From Patescibacteria group bacterium (lineage in GTDB: Bacteria > Patescibacteriota > Saccharimonadia > Saccharimonadales > JAUPVS01): DNA of 42,781 nucleotides. Within the stretch, counting starts at the first letter, position 1. Every line of letters begins with the position of its first letter. Location of the stretch: positions 1 to 42,781 of the forward strand of contig JAUPVS010000009.1 in assembly GCA_030916945.1 (NCBI GenBank), written 5' to 3'. Made by a program: the position numbers and the translations under genes. The notes under the pieces were generated by a model, which was given only the letters and a program-made list of their open reading frames with translations, was not told the origin of the DNA and did not search any database. Positions 1,463 through 27,449 of this stretch are shown here, piece by piece.

Positions 1463-1654
1463 TTAGTAGTTCTTGGTGGCGCCTTCGGCTACAGCCTTTT
1501 CAGCGTTCTCTTTGGACATCATTGCACAAACGGTTGTGCCGCATTTTTCGTGCTTGCCCTTGGCCATGTAACCACCTTTGGCAGTTTGGACGACTTCTGG
1601 TGATGATAGTTCAACGCCTTTTTCCTTACACTTAACGCAGTATCCTGTAGCCAT
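1463..1654 (-). CDS. DUF5679 small zinc-ribbon-like protein
   Basis: This 63-residue protein begins MATGYCVKCKEKG and has a second cysteine pair in 'KHEKCGTTVCAMM'. The CxxC...CxxxxC arrangement is that of a one-finger zinc ribbon, and the whole sequence fits the DUF5679 family, which is common as a stand-alone protein in CPR and other bacteria. The role is unknown; nucleic-acid binding is a reasonable guess for such ribbons. The start is supported by GAGGAG 6 nt before the ATG. The gene has its own terminator. Confidence 0.85.
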   Translation of the reverse strand: MATGYCVKCKEKGVELSSPEVVQTAKGGYMAKGKHEKCGTTVCAMMSKENAEKAVAEGATKNY

Positions 1655-1774
1655 GTCGGTCTCCTCTTGAATTGATTATTATTGCAAAGAACTTGTCCTA
1701 TTATAGCGCCAAGTTGGAATATGGCTATATTAAAGTGGAAATGGAGGGCGTAGTGTCCACGATAATTGATTGGT

Positions 1775-1865
1775 GCGAGGACTCGATCTCGCTGCGCTCG
1801 CGTTTCCTCGCATGCTCGAAACAAGTTTCTGCGCCTGCTCGTCACGAACAAACTACTCAGTAGTT
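1775..1865 (-). repeat. Dispersed modular hairpin element, copy A
   Basis: Plus-strand bases 1788-1819 (32 nt) are identical to 3758-3789, and 1830-1850 (21 nt) are identical to 3800-3820. Between and beside these fixed blocks sit hairpins whose stems differ from copy B but still pair: GAAAC/GTTTC (1818-1829), and the palindrome AACTACTCAGTAGTT (1851-1865). A further 7-bp stem, GCGAGGA/TCCTCGC, joins 1775-1781 to 1805-1811. The element lies beyond the terminator of the minus-strand SinR-family gene. No coding capacity is credible. Confidence 0.85.
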
Positions 1866-1885
1866 CCTGTCGCCTAACCAGAACA

Positions 1886-2001: not shown

Positions 2002-2277
2002 CTACCAGCGACGACTGGAACTATTGAGCCACTCAACAGATTCTTTGTTCATGTTGAAGCTGGCCCAGTTCCGAGTAATAGGTGCGACGAAGTACTCGTC
2101 GTTCTCGTCACCAGCTTTGTGCAAGCCGTCACGAAGTAACTGTGGGCTAGTAAGCGTGTCAACAAGCCAGACCGAACCTTGAGGGTGAGTATTGCTACCC
2201 GCTGCCTTGATGACGGCATACACCGCATCATAGTCTCGTCCATGCTGATGCAAATCGTAAGCTATCTGTAAAACCAT
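2002..2277 (-). CDS. SinR-family (Cas2/VapD-like fold) small protein
   Basis: The 91-residue protein starts MVLQIAYDLHQHGRDYDAVY and continues with 'GSVWLVDTLTSPQLLRDGL' and 'DENDEYFVAPITRNWASF'. This is the pattern of so-called SinR family proteins (beta-alpha-beta start with I-x-YDL, then a W-L-V strand and an N/D-D-x-x-F-V strand), which are compared to the ferredoxin-like fold of Cas2 and VapD. Family function is unclear. The ATG at 2277 was preferred to the in-frame one at 2352 because AGGAGG lies just before it. The gene is alone: no cas genes or CRISPR array are nearby. Its 3' side carries three consecutive hairpins, and a GC-rich decamer near each end (1973-1982 and 2352-2361) is in inverted orientation. 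Confidence 0.7.
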   Translation of the reverse strand: MVLQIAYDLHQHGRDYDAVYAVIKAAGSNTHPQGSVWLVDTLTSPQLLRDGLHKAGDENDEYFVAPITRNWASFNMNKESVEWLNSSSRRW

Positions 2278-2453
2278 TTGGTTAACCTCCTTTCTAGCGC
2301 ATAGAGAGCGCTGTAGTTTTTCCACACACATGGGGTTTTTGTTTGAGCCCACCTCGCCTGGCTCGGCTCCAAGTGCACCTTATATTATAGCATGTAACAC
2401 AAGGTCATTGACGTACTGTCAATAACCATAAGCATTATCTGGATCTTCTCTCG

Positions 2454-3620
2454 CTAGGGCTTATTGGAATTTGATCCCTTCGTTGGTGCAACCTTCTTGT
2501 CCGGAGTTGCAGGTTCTGGCTTTGAGCCCGTTGGCTTCTTCAGCGCTTTGTCTAGTTCTTTAATCTCTTCTTTGGTGACTTTGACCGAGAAAGGTAGCTG
2601 CTTCGCTTCCGGTGTTCCGCTATACAGCGTGCGAAGTTCTTGGTTCTTACTTGCAAGCGACTTCTGGAGAGCAGGTTCGCGAATTGACCCGTCCTTGGCA
2701 GCGCTCGCCGTCGGTGGGATAACCTCCACCTTTACACCTTCTTGTATATCTTTAAGGACGAGGCTGAAGGCCGTTTCGAAGTGAGACTCGAGTTCTGCCT
2801 TTTCGCGACCAGACGCGCCGTTTTTGTGAAGCTCGAACACTTCCAAACGAGCCTCTCCGATACACGCATTCTTTATCGAAGCTTCCCCCTCTTTCAGCTT
2901 CTCAAGTGTTTGGCGCTTGATCTCATTGTCAATTCCTAGCCCCTCGATTTCTAAACGGGTCTTTTGTATCTTCTGAACTTCCTGGTAGAGCTTCAGAACA
3001 TGCTTGAGAACGACATCAATTGCTTTGGCTACAGGTATAGTCTCCGCCAGGAAGAGAATGATAGAACCATTGTCAACGCGTACAATATTTGACGTTCCGT
3101 CTTCGCCGACTACCTCTGAGCAAGTGCGCAAGAAGATGTCCAAGTTCTTTAGACGTTCCGCGACGTCGCGGATATCTGCCTGATCGCTAGGTATAGTTAG
3201 GCCGACCTGGTAGTTAAGAGAACGATAAGGCGTGATGCCAATCGTGACTAAGCCGCCACGGAGTCCGGAGGCATGATCAAGGAACTGTGTGTAGCTTGCG
3301 CGATAGTCACCGATGCGGCCAGTGATGCTCAGCGAACTACCGGAAAAAATCTCTTCTAGCTCGGACAATGCACCGTTGCCAACAAACTCCTCACCATCTA
3401 ATTCAACAATTATTGAGTAGAGTGATGGCGGATAGGTGTTTGTTGGCGCAGCCCCCAGTTGTTGATAAAGTTCGTCTCTCATTTCCTCGGCCGCCTTAAA
3501 TGCTTCTGCGTTGTTTTGCGCCAGCTGGCTTTCGATTTCAGTGAGGCGGCCACGAAGATTGACCTTGGCATCGTATTCGACGATATCTTCAAGTACTGTA
3601 AGAAGTTTTTGCGTATCCAC
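2454..3620 (-). CDS. Unknown 388-residue protein with charged C-terminal half
   Basis: I do not recognise this protein. It starts with GTG at 3620, preceded by GGAGGG. Residues 1-60 are helical and charged. About residues 65-185 look like an alpha/beta domain ('SLYSIIVELDGEEF', 'GGLVTIGITPYRSLNYQ'). A hydrophobic stretch near 185-225 ('NGSIILFLAETIPVAKAID') leads into a long charged helix. The last 60 residues are Lys/Pro/Ser-rich and probably disordered. The hydrophobic helix followed by 'LYQEVQKIQKTRLEIEGLG' recalls helix-linker regions in proteins of bacterial conflict systems, but this is a weak resemblance. No catalytic motif is visible. Confidence 0.6.
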   Translation of the reverse strand: MDTQKLLTVLEDIVEYDAKVNLRGRLTEIESQLAQNNAEAFKAAEEMRDELYQQLGAAPTNTYPPSLYSIIVELDGEEFVGNGALSELEEIFSGSSLSITGRIGDYRASYTQFLDHASGLRGGLVTIGITPYRSLNYQVGLTIPSDQADIRDVAERLKNLDIFLRTCSEVVGEDGTSNIVRVDNGSIILFLAETIPVAKAIDVVLKHVLKLYQEVQKIQKTRLEIEGLGIDNEIKRQTLEKLKEGEASIKNACIGEARLEVFELHKNGASGREKAELESHFETAFSLVLKDIQEGVKVEVIPPTASAAKDGSIREPALQKSLASKNQELRTLYSGTPEAKQLPFSVKVTKEEIKELDKALKKPTGSKPEPATPDKKVAPTKGSNSNKP

Positions 3621-3757
3621 TGGTGAGCCCTCCGTTATTTAGACCCACCAATCTTTTCTAGCTATATTGTGACATATTGATTACTGGATTCAAACTGTCC
3701 AGTCACTTCTTTTTGTCATGAAATGAATACCTCTAATTCTAAGTATGAAACGGAGAC

Positions 3758-3845
3758 CTCGCTGCGCTCGCGTTTCCTCGCATGCTCGATACCAGCATCT
3801 GCGCCTGCTCGTCACGAACAAACTCGCCCTTGCGGGCTTCGAGTT
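3758..3845 (-). repeat. Dispersed modular hairpin element, copy B
   Basis: This is the second copy of the element at 1775-1865. The fixed blocks 3758-3789 and 3800-3820 are identical to copy A. The hairpins are different in sequence but still pair: GATAC/GCATC (3788-3799, one G-U) replaces GAAAC/GTTTC, and an AACTCG/CGAGTT stem with an inner GCCC/GGGC (3821-3845) replaces the copy A palindrome. The element sits just beyond the terminator of tRNA-Gly, in the same orientation relative to transcription as copy A. Confidence 0.85.
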
Positions 3846-3863
3846 TGGACCCTGCACCTAGAC

Positions 3864-3899: not shown

Positions 3900-3975
3900 T
3901 GGTGCGGGTGACGAGACTCAAACTCGTGGCCTCTTCCTTGGCAAGGAAGCGCTCTATCAACTGAGCTACACCCGC
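3900..3975 (-). tRNA. tRNA-Gly (anticodon GCC)
   Basis: A full cloverleaf can be drawn on the minus strand: acceptor GCGGGTG/CACCCGC, D arm beginning TAGCTCAGTTGATAGAGC, anticodon stem CTTCC/GGAAG around loop TTGCCAA, and a T arm with TTTGAGT. The anticodon GCC reads glycine codons. The discriminator is A and CCA is encoded (3900-3902). Length is 76 nt. Confidence 0.95.
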
Positions 3976-4095: not shown

Positions 4096-4884
4096 ATGGA
4101 TGCAAGACAACATTTACAACCCTTAGACACTAGCCGGGCGGCGATCGCTGCTTCGCGCAAACGTTTTGAAGAGGTCCGCATTGAAAGCATGAATGGTGAT
4201 TCCTATCGCCCTCGACGTCAGTATGAGCCCGATCCGGTAATGGTCGACGAAAACAGTGACCCGGCGATCGATCGTATATTTGACGATTTAGATAATGAGC
4301 CAGAAGTTATTGATTTAAATGAGGTGGATGACCCCACCCTAAAAGAGCTTATAAAAGCTGAAACCAGGGGTGAAGTCGATAATCCGTTTGCCGATGTTTT
4401 ACAAGTCCCAGGTGTTTATTCTGAAGGTGCAACCTTAACGTTACTAAGAGCACCTATCTTTAAGCCTCAGGCCTTACCGCCGTCTTCTGGCCACAAGACA
4501 GTAGTTAAGCCAGCCCCAGAAGAAGAATTTGTTGTATATGTACCTGATCGATTGGTGTCATTGCTGCAACCAGCCGAACCAATCGAAAAGCGTTCTGGCT
4601 GGCGCGAGAAATTATCAGGTGGTTGGAAGAAGGCCCGCACCGCCGTTTTAATTGGTGGGGCCGCTCTAGTTGGCGTGGCCGCATTTAATAGCTTGCAGTC
4701 AAACGAACAGCCAGCAGTTGAAGAAGCCGCCCCGGCACAAAGTGTTGAGCTAAGCGCTCAAGCCGTAACCGCCCTTAAGAGCCAAGAATTTGCCGACTTA
4801 GTGCAGTGCAGCGTTGAATTTGATAATTGCTTAGAGGTAATTGAGTTTGCCGTGCAGGTTGATCGTCTAAAGAACGCCGAATAA
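4096..4884 (+). CDS. Unknown single-pass membrane protein, acidic N-terminal domain
   Basis: The 262-residue protein has a long acidic, probably unstructured N-terminal part (Asp/Glu-rich, residues 45-100), a basic patch, one hydrophobic segment near 181-199 ('TAVLIGGAALVGVAAF') and a short C-terminal domain with two cysteines ('VQCSVEFDNCLEVIEF'). The large domain is cytoplasmic if the positive-inside rule holds. No family is recognised. A TAATAT box at 4082-4087 ends 8 nt before the ATG and no Shine-Dalgarno site is present, so the message is probably leaderless. The gene ends in a bidirectional terminator shared with tRNA-Phe. Confidence 0.75.
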   Translation: MDARQHLQPLDTSRAAIAASRKRFEEVRIESMNGDSYRPRRQYEPDPVMVDENSDPAIDRIFDDLDNEPEVIDLNEVDDPTLKELIKAETRGEVDNPFADVLQVPGVYSEGATLTLLRAPIFKPQALPPSSGHKTVVKPAPEEEFVVYVPDRLVSLLQPAEPIEKRSGWREKLSGGWKKARTAVLIGGAALVGVAAFNSLQSNEQPAVEEAAPAQSVELSAQAVTALKSQEFADLVQCSVEFDNCLEVIEFAVQVDRLKNAE

Positions 4885-24264: not shown

Positions 24265-24338
24265 TGGGGATTGGCCAAGCGGTAAGGCAGCGGATTCTGG
24301 TTCCGCGATCGGGGGTTCGAATCCCTCATCCCCAGCCA
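24265..24338 (+). tRNA. tRNA-Gln (anticodon CTG)
   Basis: Acceptor TGGGGAT pairs with ATCCCCA, the D arm reads TGGCCAAGCGGTAAGGCA, and the anticodon stem GCGGA/TCCGC closes loop TTCTGGT, giving anticodon CTG. The T arm contains GGTTCGAATCC. Discriminator G and an encoded CCA complete the 74-nt gene. A minus-strand open frame (24261-24533) across it is rejected. Confidence 0.95.
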
Positions 24339-24346
24339 TAAAAAGT

Positions 24347-24371
24347 GCCCACATTTTGTGGGCTTTTTTTT
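24347..24371 (+). terminator. Terminator of tRNA-Gln
   Basis: Stem GCCCACA/TGTGGGC (24347-24353 with 24357-24363), a 3-nt loop and a run of eight T. Confidence 0.9.
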
Positions 24372-24393
24372 ATGGCTTTGAGTGAGAGGGATG

Positions 24394-24500
24394 ATAACCG
24401 TCCTTTTGCGCAGCAAAAGAGGTTCGGCGAAGTGAGCAATGCGAACGAAGAAGCGACGAGCACAAAGTGCGAGGGAAGCGCTATCCTGCCACCCCAGCCA
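24394..24500 (+). repeat. Modular hairpin element, copy C
   Basis: It shares with copy D the blocks GGTTCGGCGAAGTGAGC, GCGAACGAA.AAGCGACGAG and CACAAAGTGCGAGGGAAGCG, and the 3' end CTATCCTGCCACCC.AGCCA. The 5' hairpin here is CTTTTGC-GCA-GCAAAAG (24403-24419), different from copy D in stem sequence but alike in shape. A small stem, GCA/TGC (24436-24442), replaces GCCT/AGGC of copy D. The 3' end looks like a tRNA T-arm and acceptor tail. Confidence 0.85.
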
Positions 24501-24538
24501 GTTTTGCAGAATGACTTTTAAGTCGTTATGCAAAACTG
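24501..24538. repeat. 38-nt imperfect palindrome between copies C and D
   Basis: GTTTTGCA (24501-24508) pairs with TGCAAAAC at the far end, and AATGACTT pairs with AAGTCGTT inside, leaving almost no loop. No T-run follows, so it is not an ordinary terminator. Confidence 0.6.
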
Positions 24539-24553
24539 TTTAAGATGTTGGGA

Positions 24554-24660
24554 TTTGAACCGTAGCTGCGTAGCAGCAGGTTCGGCGAAGTGAGCCTAAG
24601 GCGAACGAAAAAGCGACGAGCACAAAGTGCGAGGGAAGCGCTATCCTGCCACCCTAGCCA
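24554..24660 (+). repeat. Modular hairpin element, copy D
   Basis: The second copy of the element at 24394-24500. Its 5' hairpin is GAACC-GTA-GCTGC-GTA-GCAGC-A-GGTTC (24557-24583), and its internal palindrome is GCCTAAGGC (24594-24602). From 24603 on it is nearly identical to copy C, with one A/G and one T/C difference seen. Confidence 0.85.
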
Positions 24661-24684: not shown

Positions 24685-25032
24685 TTGTTTAAAGTTGCCA
24701 AAGACGAAGAAACTTCAATTAAAGACTTTCGTATTAAGTTTATTGAGCTTTCAATTATTACAATTGCGGCGTTTTCTCTTGTTCTACTTTCTACAGAACA
24801 AAAGGAGGTCAAATACTTACTGGCTTCGTTTGCTGGGCTTATTGTTTATCAGATTGCAGTCCTGGGGTTTGGCGCAAACAAAGTGCTACATCATAAGATC
24901 CTGAAGGGCGGTAGTTCAGATGAAGAGGTCTCAATAACGCACTATTCATATTCTTTGAGAGTTTGGGATTATATTACTTTGATTTGGTATGCATTAACAT
25001 TATTAACTAGCGTTGTAATAATAGTTATCTAG
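24685..25032 (+). CDS. Small three-helix membrane protein, unknown
   Basis: The 115-residue protein would start with TTG at 24685, preceded by an AAGGA site. Hydrophobic segments are at about 19-36, 44-64 and 93-115 ('LIWYALTLLTSVVIIVI' at the end). Codon use is more AT-rich than in the neighbouring operons. No family is recognised. It lies directly after repeat copy D and convergent to the PP-loop gene, so this patch may be accessory. The non-ATG start keeps confidence moderate. Confidence 0.55.
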   Translation: MFKVAKDEETSIKDFRIKFIELSIITIAAFSLVLLSTEQKEVKYLLASFAGLIVYQIAVLGFGANKVLHHKILKGGSSDEEVSITHYSYSLRVWDYITLIWYALTLLTSVVIIVI

Positions 25033-25170: not shown

Positions 25171-26592
25171 TCAATTTTTCAGAGCTTCAACTATTGATAC
25201 AGCCTTTTGTTTTAGTATTGGGTTTAGCTTTGTTTCAAAGTATTCGGACAACAATTCAGGCAAATTACATTTTCTAAGAAAAGTAATATCAATGTCTAGT
25301 TGGCTCGTGGCAGTGTCTATAAAATCTTGTATGTCGTGGCCTTCAAGTAGTTCTTTTACAATAGGCTTATCAAAACCTTTTTTAATACACAAAGCTAATG
25401 CAAGCAATGTTTCTCCTGGTTGCCCGACACATTCAAATGGGGTCTGAACATCTTTACCGGCCAGCATTCTTAATATGTCGTGGTTCTCTTCGACGTCGAA
25501 TAAGTTTTCTCCGCCAAAAACTTCATCACGTACTTTTTCAGCGTCAAGGAATGCTAGGTAAAACAACCATACGTAAACACACTTAGCACAACGCCTACAC
25601 CAAGGCTTGCTAACATTACAGGAGTGTGCCTTTTTGACCAGATCCCATGACAAGGATTCTAAAACTGTAAAAATTGCAGGATCACTCAAAGGCATAAGGG
25701 TGGAGTAGTAGTCCAAACCTCTCAATAGATGTTCGTCAAGATAACTTGCTAGTAACATCTGCGCCTCTAAGCTCTTGCCCCATTGGTGATTTATGGGTGC
25801 AGATTCCTCTGCTAGCCAATTTAAGTTTGGATAATTAGACGACTTCTCATGTCCTAATGCAAGTGAGCTATAGCCGGAATATATTGCTAAGGGAATTGCC
25901 TCAAATAAAGAGGCTGGCGTCTCTGCTGCTGCCAGTGTGTGGATTTTATATTCCTGGCCATCATACTCAATAATCGGGCTATCCAAAAAATCATCAAAGA
26001 CAACCAATTCATTAATATATGCTTCTGTTGATGCAACTTTCGCAAGCGCCTTTACATCTGACTGCTCTGCACGATTACCATATATAGAGCTTGAATACTC
26101 GAGTATATCGTGAACTAATCCAACTTTGCTGAGTAAATGAGTAGAGACTAGGCTGTCTTTGCCTCCTCCAAAAAGAGCTAATGCCACAGGTTCTTCGGAA
26201 AACTGGCTAATCGGCTCGTGTTTTGGCCTCTTACTATTGGCTATAAGCTTCGGCGGTTTATCATGTGGCAAATTATTTTCGTAACGCCACTGTCCCCAAA
26301 CATTAAGAAAGATTTCATGCCAAAGATTAGCAAAACTTTCATCAACATACTTGGTCAAATCGCCAAGATGAACGTTGTCGAGATGAAGGGATCCATATTT
26401 GTTCATCTCAAACGCAGCAATATGTGCTACTAGGCGCTCTAAGTCGTAGCGCCCTATCTCTCTTTCAAGCTTGTGAAAATCAACATTTTTATACCAAATG
26501 CTCGTAGAGAATACTCTCCCCATTACATTTGCTTCAAAGAATAAACGATCTTTTTCAATATGATACTTTTCAAGCACAGCACTTTTAGTCAT
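25171..26592 (-). CDS. PP-loop ATP pyrophosphatase-type protein resembling MurL epimerase
   Basis: The 473-residue protein has a PP-loop 'ALALFGGGKDSLVSTHLL' (137-154) that binds ATP with release of pyrophosphate. It also has 'GHEKSSNYPNLNW' and 'INHQWGKSLEAQML', a four-cysteine set in 'SCNVSKPWCRRCAKC' (Cys325, 332, 335, 338) and 'TPFECVGQPGET'. From memory these fit MurL, which uses ATP to epimerise the terminal L-Glu of UDP-MurNAc-L-Ala-L-Glu, better than the related QueC. If correct, the cell makes D-Glu for its wall by the MurD2/MurL route. No MurD2 is in the window. ATG 26592 is chosen because a TATCAT box (26599-26604, minus) ends 6 nt before it. Confidence 0.65.
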   Translation of the reverse strand: MTKSAVLEKYHIEKDRLFFEANVMGRVFSTSIWYKNVDFHKLEREIGRYDLERLVAHIAAFEMNKYGSLHLDNVHLGDLTKYVDESFANLWHEIFLNVWGQWRYENNLPHDKPPKLIANSKRPKHEPISQFSEEPVALALFGGGKDSLVSTHLLSKVGLVHDILEYSSSIYGNRAEQSDVKALAKVASTEAYINELVVFDDFLDSPIIEYDGQEYKIHTLAAAETPASLFEAIPLAIYSGYSSLALGHEKSSNYPNLNWLAEESAPINHQWGKSLEAQMLLASYLDEHLLRGLDYYSTLMPLSDPAIFTVLESLSWDLVKKAHSCNVSKPWCRRCAKCVYVWLFYLAFLDAEKVRDEVFGGENLFDVEENHDILRMLAGKDVQTPFECVGQPGETLLALALCIKKGFDKPIVKELLEGHDIQDFIDTATSQLDIDITFLRKCNLPELLSEYFETKLNPILKQKAVSIVEALKN

Positions 26593-26737
26593 AGAGTAAT
26601 GATAACAAAAATACTCGTTCATTTTAGGATAAGGTTGGGGGGGTAGACTTCAACTCCATGATCCTTTGCACCATTTTCATGTTCATCATCTCCTATCAAA
26701 GTTCTATAATCGTCTCTTATCTCCAGCCAAAGAAAAC

Positions 26738-26765: not shown

Positions 26766-26783
26766 TTTACTTGAATAGGGCTT

Positions 26784-26809
26784 GAACCCGTACGGCGTAG
26801 CCGGGGTTC
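26784..26809. repeat. Modular hairpin, copy E (5' module only)
   Basis: GAACCC-GTA-CGGC-GTA-GCCG-GGGTTC repeats the layout of copy D's first hairpin (outer GAACC/GGTTC, GTA spacers, variable inner stem) with a different inner stem. It lies just downstream of the stop of the minus-strand gene at 26820. The downstream blocks of copies C and D are absent. Confidence 0.65.
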
Positions 26810-26819
26810 GTTCATCAAG

Positions 26820-27449
26820 CTAGCTAGAAGTGTCTTTGCAGGTGATCTTGGCCGCTTCGTCCTTGGATACAATAAACATGATCAAGTGAAAGTCGCTGAT
26901 GGGCTGGCCTTGTTTGGGAGTGACTGGTGCCAACGAAAAGTGATCGACCGGGTAATCGCGAGTTAGCTTTAGGATGGCGTCCGACAGGTACTCCGGATTA
27001 GACTGAATGCTGCTGACGTTAAGGCTGTATTCGACGGCAATAACTTTGTTGTTTACCACGTCGTAGATAGGGCCGGCTGGGATGTCTTTGGGTAGGATGT
27101 ACTGCTTGCCGCGGCCGATTACACATTCGGCTAGCACTACAGCTTGGGGTGGCAGGCTCAGCGGTTTAGGTTTTGGAGCGACGGTTATAATTTCTTTATC
27201 TCCTTTGCCGACTACGTAGGCACCATAGACTGAACCAGCAAACAGCATCAGCACTAAAACAATAACCGCAAAGATTATAATTTTCCGTTTTGGTTTTTTT
27301 GAAGCCGGCGGGCTTGGGGCGATGTTTGGCGGGCTAACAGACGGTTGTATAACAGGGGTGTTTTGTACTGGAATCGTATCGACAGGCGGCGAAATTTGGT
27401 CGTTGTACTGGTTAGCCGAAGTCATATCGGAGTTGTTTTCTTCAGCCAT
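26820..27449 (-). CDS. Unknown single-pass membrane protein
   Basis: The 209-residue protein has a Pro/Ser/Asn-rich cytoplasmic tail, a Lys-rich boundary and a membrane segment at about 57-80. The external domain includes 'AECVIGRGKQYILPKDIPAG' and 'YDVVNNKVIAVEYSLNV', with a second cysteine near the C-terminus that could pair with the first. No family is recognised. A TATTAT box (minus, 27460-27465) ends 10 nt before the ATG at 27449; earlier in-frame ATGs at 27461 and 27455 overlap the box. It is divergent from the histidine kinase gene. Confidence 0.7.
   Translation of the reverse strand: MAEENNSDMTSANQYNDQISPPVDTIPVQNTPVIQPSVSPPNIAPSPPASKKPKRKIIIFAVIVLVLMLFAGSVYGAYVVGKGDKEIITVAPKPKPLSLPPQAVVLAECVIGRGKQYILPKDIPAGPIYDVVNNKVIAVEYSLNVSSIQSNPEYLSDAILKLTRDYPVDHFSLAPVTPKQGQPISDFHLIMFIVSKDEAAKITCKDTSS

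Follow-up and report, generated by a model that had tools for sequence, protein, structure and literature searches.

Hairpin-rich elements behind tRNA genes of Saccharibacteria, probable right-hand ends of small insertion units targeting the T-loop

Why should two structured elements, each ending like the 3' tail of a tRNA, stand in tandem behind a tRNA-Gln gene, and do they belong to the tRNA locus or to something that has entered it? We consider this question for a window of 42,781 nucleotides, which is contig C23 of an 860-kb genome (G000). One structured element is present here in two copies, C (24389-24500) and D (24549-24660), which lie about 160 nt apart and share linkers as the preliminary description had stated; they match over 63 nt at 95% identity (24438-24500 and 24598-24660) and have an 18-mer in common, AGGTTCGGCGAAGTGAGC, that is 100% identical. 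The linker GCGACGAGCACAAAGTGC occurs twice in the window at three or fewer mismatches, where 0.02 occurrences are expected, and none of 100 shuffles held two. Chance similarity is rejected by the shuffles and by the tails of other tRNAs used as a control. The hairpins set among the linkers are exchanged, as had also been noticed, with CTTTTGC-GCA-GCAAAAG and GC-AAT-GC in C replaced by GCTGC-GTA-GCAGC and GCC-TAA-GGC in D. The features of this part of the array are listed below; the tRNA was identified by ARAGORN and Rfam, the tail copies by sequence comparison, and the terminator and L-boxes were read from the sequence.

24265..24338 (+), tRNA-Gln(ctg), the anchor of the array
24339..24375 (+), terminator-like hairpin with a T-run, between tRNA-Gln and C
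24389..24399 (+), L-box of C, GGATGATAACC, inverted T-arm-like, at the same place in other copies
24400..24426 (+), hairpin of C, CTTTTGC-GCA-GCAAAAG, then AGGTTCG (first T-arm/T-loop half)
24427..24482 (+), structured insert of C, with the end GAAGCGCT (model R1, 90.6 bits)
24483..24500 (+), tail copy of C (tRNA positions 59-76, ending CCA)
24550..24561 (+), L-box of D, GGGATTTGAACC, inverted T-arm
24562..24584 (+), hairpin of D, GCTGC-GTA-GCAGC, then AGGTTCG
24585..24642 (+), structured insert of D (model R1, 86.2 bits)
24643..24660 (+), tail copy of D

The proposed likeness of the 3' ends to a tRNA holds for their form but not for a fit to the tRNA-Gln genes of this genome. The end ATCCTGCCACCCYAGCCA has the form of a tRNA tail from position 59 to 76, and the C and D ends are 78% and 72% identical to the tail of the upstream tRNA-Gln (4 and 5 mismatches of 18). 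Both agree with a T-arm GCAGG/CCTGC of a tRNA-Gln, but the two tRNA-Gln genes found in G000 lack it. The first half of this same T-arm is also carried by D ahead of its insert, and the split T-arm suspected there is present, with GCAGG-TTCG ahead of the insert and CCTGC after it.

The order on the tRNA strand is the tRNA to its CCA, a terminator-like hairpin of about 40 nt, the L-box, a hairpin, GGTTCG, the insert, and the tail. The L-box is an inverted T-arm (e.g., CAGGATTTGAACCTGCG behind a tRNA-Ser in L094), the hairpin after it often has a GNA loop, and the tail copy runs from RTCC to CCA, corresponding to tRNA positions 59 to 76. The insert occupies the place of about position 58, and the earlier idea that a unit had entered a T-loop describes the geometry throughout the family. 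Conserved boxes of the insert are GYGKAGCGA, GAGCGGAGAAGC, and the end GCGCT or GCGAT, and the hairpins are interchangeable. Most units are about 150-190 nt; inverted GAACC...GGTTC boxes are present, CTTG tetraloops are frequent in the hairpins, and in many elements the tail no longer has its acceptor part.

Folded singly, C and D do no better than shuffles (z 0.42 and -0.14), and the structure is thus apparent only from covariation across the family. In an alignment of 28 rows (A3), picked by a script requiring some pairing and with 5 of 33 hits removed by hand as false-looking, all ten tested pairs vary on both sides and 91% of the cells pair, giving a covariation score of 0.718 against 0.272 when shuffled and at most 0.116 when slid. 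Eight of these rows were also found by model R1, with standard pairs in 78 of 80 cells. Plus-strand G-T pairs (nine) and A-C mismatches (eight) are about equal, so that neither strand is singled out, and the same holds for RNA versus single-stranded DNA. Rfam matched only the tRNAs at gathering scores over the window, with nothing over the elements, and gave no convincing match over the elements of 17 further loci.

The window also carries elements A and B, to which C and D had been tentatively related as tRNA-targeting elements:

3752..3850 (-), element A, behind tRNA-Gly(gcc) at 3900-3975 and carrying the T-arm stretch GAGTTTG of that tRNA
2454..3620 (-), ORF of 388 aa lying between A and B, in the same direction as tRNA-Gly and without a Pfam match
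2002..2352 (-), ORF of 116 aa, likewise between A and B, in the same direction as tRNA-Gly and without a Pfam match
1771..1870 (-), element B, with the tail-like end GAGTCCTCGCACCA

The A/B-type insert has ACGCGCA-hairpin-GAGCA within a second stem, the C/D-type insert has GACGAGC-hairpin-GCGAGGGAA, and in the A/B type the L-box and the first T-arm half match the local tRNA. An element at tRNA-Tyr (L079 of G066; L010) contains both modules and thus joins A, B, C, and D in one family; with copies standing behind tRNA genes, the suggested relationship is supported. A further insert type, with a GGGCCTGCCGAAGGTAGGTCGAATCC-like end, is seen behind tRNA-Gln in L159, L148, L150, L175, and L126 (unit 2). 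The same small protein, a DUF5679 protein in the window copy, adjoins elements at tRNA-Gly in the window (1463-1654, minus strand) and at tRNA-Gln of the LH_M92 genome (L038:3709-3900, minus strand), and is possibly a travelling cassette gene.

Two models were used to follow the family. R1, built from nine C-type copies, has matches in at least 31 of 392 genomes of the order, and R2, built from 28 A/B-type copies, in at least 10 of 379 genomes of the phylum, both counts being lower bounds with at most 11 candidates scored per genome. The R2 genomes include two that belong to the class but not to the order, and three (G666, G736, and G741) that are binned outside the class. Within G000, a third C-type copy is on contig C17 (90% identity) and a third A/B-type copy is behind tRNA-Lys on contig C19. 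The blocks are therefore not unique to this locus, and relatives are present in several families of the order. Reading by eye downstream of 36 tRNA genes of G000 revealed elements that have diverged further, behind Glu-ctc, Asn, Val-tac, Met, Thr-cgt, Asp, and Pro-ggg, as well as short or partial ones at some others; in G166, similar reading placed elements behind Asn, Tyr, Asp, His, Leu-caa, Leu-cag, Leu-tag, Glu-ctc, Gln, Lys, Arg (three), Ser-gct, and Met, with a partial one at Val. Scanning a genome collection gave 20 stretches, of which three Saccharibacteria MAGs contribute 5, and the named genomes with true copies are the Saccharibacteria MAGs RYN_405, OFTM59, and LH_M92, on which ground G000 is taken as a member of the Saccharibacteria or a near relative. 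The other 15 stretches are read as chance, except for an Acidimicrobiia MAG (L034) with repeats resembling GCGACGAGC..GCGAGGGAAGCGCTAGCGACGAGC at 987-1019 and 4688-4718, in a locus where no tRNA was found. Among viral contigs, one pattern gave a single match that reads as coding sequence and two other patterns gave none.

The elements cluster 3' of tRNA genes, as had been anticipated. In 23 of 30 R1 loci the element is 59-91 nt behind a same-strand tRNA, and in the controls a same-strand tRNA within 120 nt ahead is seen in none of the 30, and a nearby tRNA on the opposite strand in one. Among the exceptions, three have a distant upstream tRNA (L080 at 1251, L085 at 1208, and L093 at 260 nt) and four have none found upstream in the locus (L082, L089, L099, and L104). 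At four or fewer mismatches, a tRNA's own tail recurs within 250 nt for 7 of 35 and 6 of 35 tRNAs of two genomes, G000 and G166, chosen because they hold elements, whereas tails of other isotypes do so in 5 of 1174 and 1 of 1194 cases and antisense tails in none. The tail copy usually matches the tRNA directly upstream; in an element-enriched sample, 26 of the 49 tail copies lying within 250 nt match exactly over 18 nt, and 8 of 21 R2 loci outside G000 have an exact own tail, behind tRNAs for Asn, Phe, Gly, Gln, Glu, Lys (two), and Ser. T-arm 8-mers are weak as a stand-alone test, and k-mers behind the tails are terminator words only. An intact tRNA accompanied by a displaced fragment of the same tRNA in the same orientation, the arrangement seen at islands, is thus observed.

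The presence of units is patchy among relatives. When tRNA-Gln genes of relatives, chosen by kinship, were surveyed, a tail was found within 250 nt in 6 of the 27 loci having at least 250 nt (L146, which is the window, L147, L150, L159, L174, and L175), L169 and L173 having been left out as too short. The comparison with element-free sites that had been proposed succeeds in part: many relatives are unit-free at the corresponding tRNA, as at tRNA-Gln(ctg) of G001 (L154), but they are too distant for exact borders to be mapped. The insertion borders proposed below rest on the tandem copies.

Such tandem copies are found at several tRNAs. In L147, three units of about 170 nt follow one another in tandem, with a terminator behind each inner tail; L126 also has three, L124 has three behind tRNA-Arg with cargo, and L074 has two nearly identical units behind tRNA-Asp with an APH-family kinase between them. 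Counted from the tRNA outward, tail mismatches are 0,0,2 (L147), 0,1,5 (L126), and 2,2,4 (L124). ORFs are present in 8 of 10 intervals examined, and in 7 of these 8 all are codirectional with the tRNA, the block in G366 being reversed; a putative cassette order, a codirectional ORF and then a candidate site, can be read in 7 of the 8 ORF-bearing blocks. Compact blocks (Arg unit 2, Asp, and His) have one ORF, separated by 9-20 nt from the tail and by 44-100 nt from the next element, and the cargo includes GNAT and APH-family proteins. Upstream of some tRNA-Gln genes there are mirror units, in which a displaced 5' half is followed by CTGTYTGAGC-hairpin-GCGAG (L103, L126, and L129), with an inverted copy of the anticodon arm in L126 and L129; weaker displaced 5' copies are seen in L047 (Arg) and L196 (Phe). 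A scan for 5' halves picked out 6 of 164, including L065, where the match is to a complete tRNA next door, against 5 of 1738 in the control.

Beyond D, the array in the window continues to about 26.7-26.84 kb, where a displaced tail is followed by an older, truncated element; the terminator and element E here were read from the sequence:

24685..25032 (+), ORF of 115 aa following D, a possible cargo gene without a Pfam match
25171..26622 (-), ORF of 483 aa, possible cargo in the opposite orientation, no Pfam match
26698..26729 (+), AAAGTTCTATAATC (26698-26711) and the third tail GTCTCTTATCTCCAGCCA (26712-26729), a displaced tRNA-Gln 3' end, with the same end on C17
26730..26769 (+), terminator-like hairpin immediately after the third tail
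26778..26840 (+), element E, truncated and older, made up of GGGCTTGAACCC, a hairpin, GGGGTTCG, and a broken insert

This block, with one ORF each way, is outside the count of 10 intervals. Model R2 gives element E 12.6 bits (E 0.19 over the window). The end motif AAAGTTCTATAAT lies directly ahead of a tRNA-Gln-like tail twice in G000, at 26698-26711 of the window and on C17 (L068, about 1830), where the end and tail are behind a Fic gene. Tail mismatches along the window array, from the tRNA outward, are 4,5,4, with no steady rise. The third tail, its terminator, and E look like the original surroundings of tRNA-Gln, displaced by 2.4 kb. The T-arm GCAGG/CCTGC that the C and D tails fit is absent from both tRNA-Gln genes found in G000, and we infer that the C-D block was put together at another tRNA-Gln and later moved as a whole.

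The family is real, is present in several families of the order, and is tied to tRNA genes. The best supported reading is that these are insertion units, and C and D probably form the right-hand ends of small units directed at the T-loop of Saccharibacteria tRNA genes and replacing the tRNA 3' end. Such a unit would consist of a replacement tRNA 3' end (positions 59-76), a terminator with or without cargo genes, and a hairpin-rich attachment end formed by an inverted T-arm, a hairpin, GGTTCG, and a structured insert ending GCGCT or GCGAT. It would enter as DNA, with recombination at the T-loop placing it between positions 57 and 59; the unit would supply a working tRNA 3' end, and the old 3' end, displaced to the far side, would persist there as the tail copy. 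Successive insertions would generate tandem arrays, in which genes between tail and attachment end could act as cassettes. The hairpins may be recognised as a single strand, and the recombinase would act in trans and could be the cell's own XerA-like enzyme or be encoded by a phage or plasmid. We consider this reading moderately probable. Several observations count against it, namely, that no integrase was found with the units, that Y1 is missing from G000 and G166, that about 150-190 nt is far below the size of known islands, that the insertion borders are read from tandem copies, that the tail has in many elements been shortened by its acceptor part, that the window mismatches run 4,5,4, and that the C and D tails do not match either of the tRNA-Gln genes found in G000.

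Only one tyrosine recombinase was found in G000 and in G166, XerA-like in each, and on this ground it is a candidate, no more, for the recombinase of the units; the best candidate passes the XerA_Arch model NF040815 and scores 131 against the TIGR02249 (IntI) cut-off of 265. No integrase was found within the units. A Y1 transposase or phage-type integrase as the carrier finds no support, Y1 being absent from G000 and G166 (it is present in 5 of 10 genomes) and the stretches around 3 of 4 tyrosine recombinase hits and 3 of 4 Y1 hits of G012 containing no R1 or R2 match. In G251, an R1 match and a Y1 gene (L213) are about 3 kb apart, an isolated instance.

Three other explanations were considered. 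The elements could be a functional noncoding RNA or cis-acting element behind tRNAs, with T-arm copies that pair with or mimic the tRNA and a tail that is part of the RNA, and the covarying stems, frequent CTTG tetraloops, conserved boxes, near-constant spacing behind the tRNA, and match of the A/B-type L-box and first T-arm half to the local tRNA all speak for this. However, a terminator usually stands between tRNA and element, the tail frequently lacks its acceptor part, presence is patchy, the G-T and A-C counts single out no strand, single copies fold no better than shuffles, and Rfam has no match; the upstream mirror units, which favour DNA insertion in tRNA loops, and the cargo arrays are left unexplained, and we regard an RNA gene or cis-acting element as unlikely. 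It is rather improbable that the elements are the worn-out ends of ordinary tRNA-integrating islands or prophages whose own integrases were later deleted. Some arrays do carry cargo, and a tRNA with a displaced fragment is the standard island signature (PMC4383910); nevertheless, many tail copies are perfect, and terminator plus spacer take up only about 60-90 nt ahead of the element, the same structured insert is present at tRNAs of many isotypes, and no such insert is near 3 of 4 recombinase hits of G012. Plain local tandem duplication of tRNA 3' ends with no mobility would account for copies that are local, commonly tandem, and in the same orientation, but we consider it very improbable because the insert, with its covarying hairpins, is common to different tRNAs and families and is not tRNA-derived.

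The insertion-unit reading invites comparison with known mobile systems. Integron cassettes and integrase-less attC clusters combine a gene with a structured site in mostly codirectional arrays, with variable-arm hairpins and GNAT- and APH-type cargo, and all of these are found here too; in contrast, the anchor here is a tRNA gene rather than attI, each site is followed by a tRNA tail copy, and no integron integrase was found. The attC sites have R and L boxes and are recombined as a folded single (bottom) strand, and by analogy the covarying hairpins suggest that the site described here may likewise be read as a folded single strand. REP elements with RAYT (Y1) transposases are similarly short intergenic hairpins at many genome places, whereas the present elements are tied to tRNA genes, carry a tRNA tail copy, and are in genomes (G000 and G166) where no Y1 was found. 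Islands at tRNA genes, as described in the Islander report, likewise have an intact tRNA with a displaced same-orientation fragment, tandem arrays, and subsites in the T loop and anticodon loop, the stem junction being a further site used by islands (PMC4383910), and tRNA fragments are noted to serve as attR sites (PMC9897764). They differ from the units here, which are about 150-190 nt or a few genes long, have no integrase, form arrays of three or more, and share one hairpin-rich insert at many tRNA isotypes. Islander demands an integrase and at least 2 kb (PMC4383910), such that units like these would be missed, and no description of such tRNA-anchored hairpin units came up in the literature searched.

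More tentatively, and with somewhat greater doubt than belief, we suggest as plausible a tRNA-anchored gene-capture system in Saccharibacteria, and perhaps other Patescibacteria, in which cassettes with a folded single-strand site would enter the T-loops (and anticodon loops) of many tRNAs, rebuild the tRNA, and stack as arrays, using a recombinase in trans without an integron integrase. If so, the very small genomes of these host-dependent bacteria would carry a distributed gene-acquisition platform with tRNA genes as docking sites, joining island logic (the tRNA is restored) to integron logic (gene plus structured site, in arrays). This would locate part of the variable gene content of Saccharibacteria, provide a precise way to find it, and raise the testable question of which recombinase moves units of about 160 nt. 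We also note riboswitch-like matches near some of the tRNA arrays, with a SAM riboswitch above threshold in L147 (778-888, minus strand) and just below it in L012 (1789-1894, plus strand), and an AdoCbl-II-like match just below threshold in L126 (2148-2220, plus strand).
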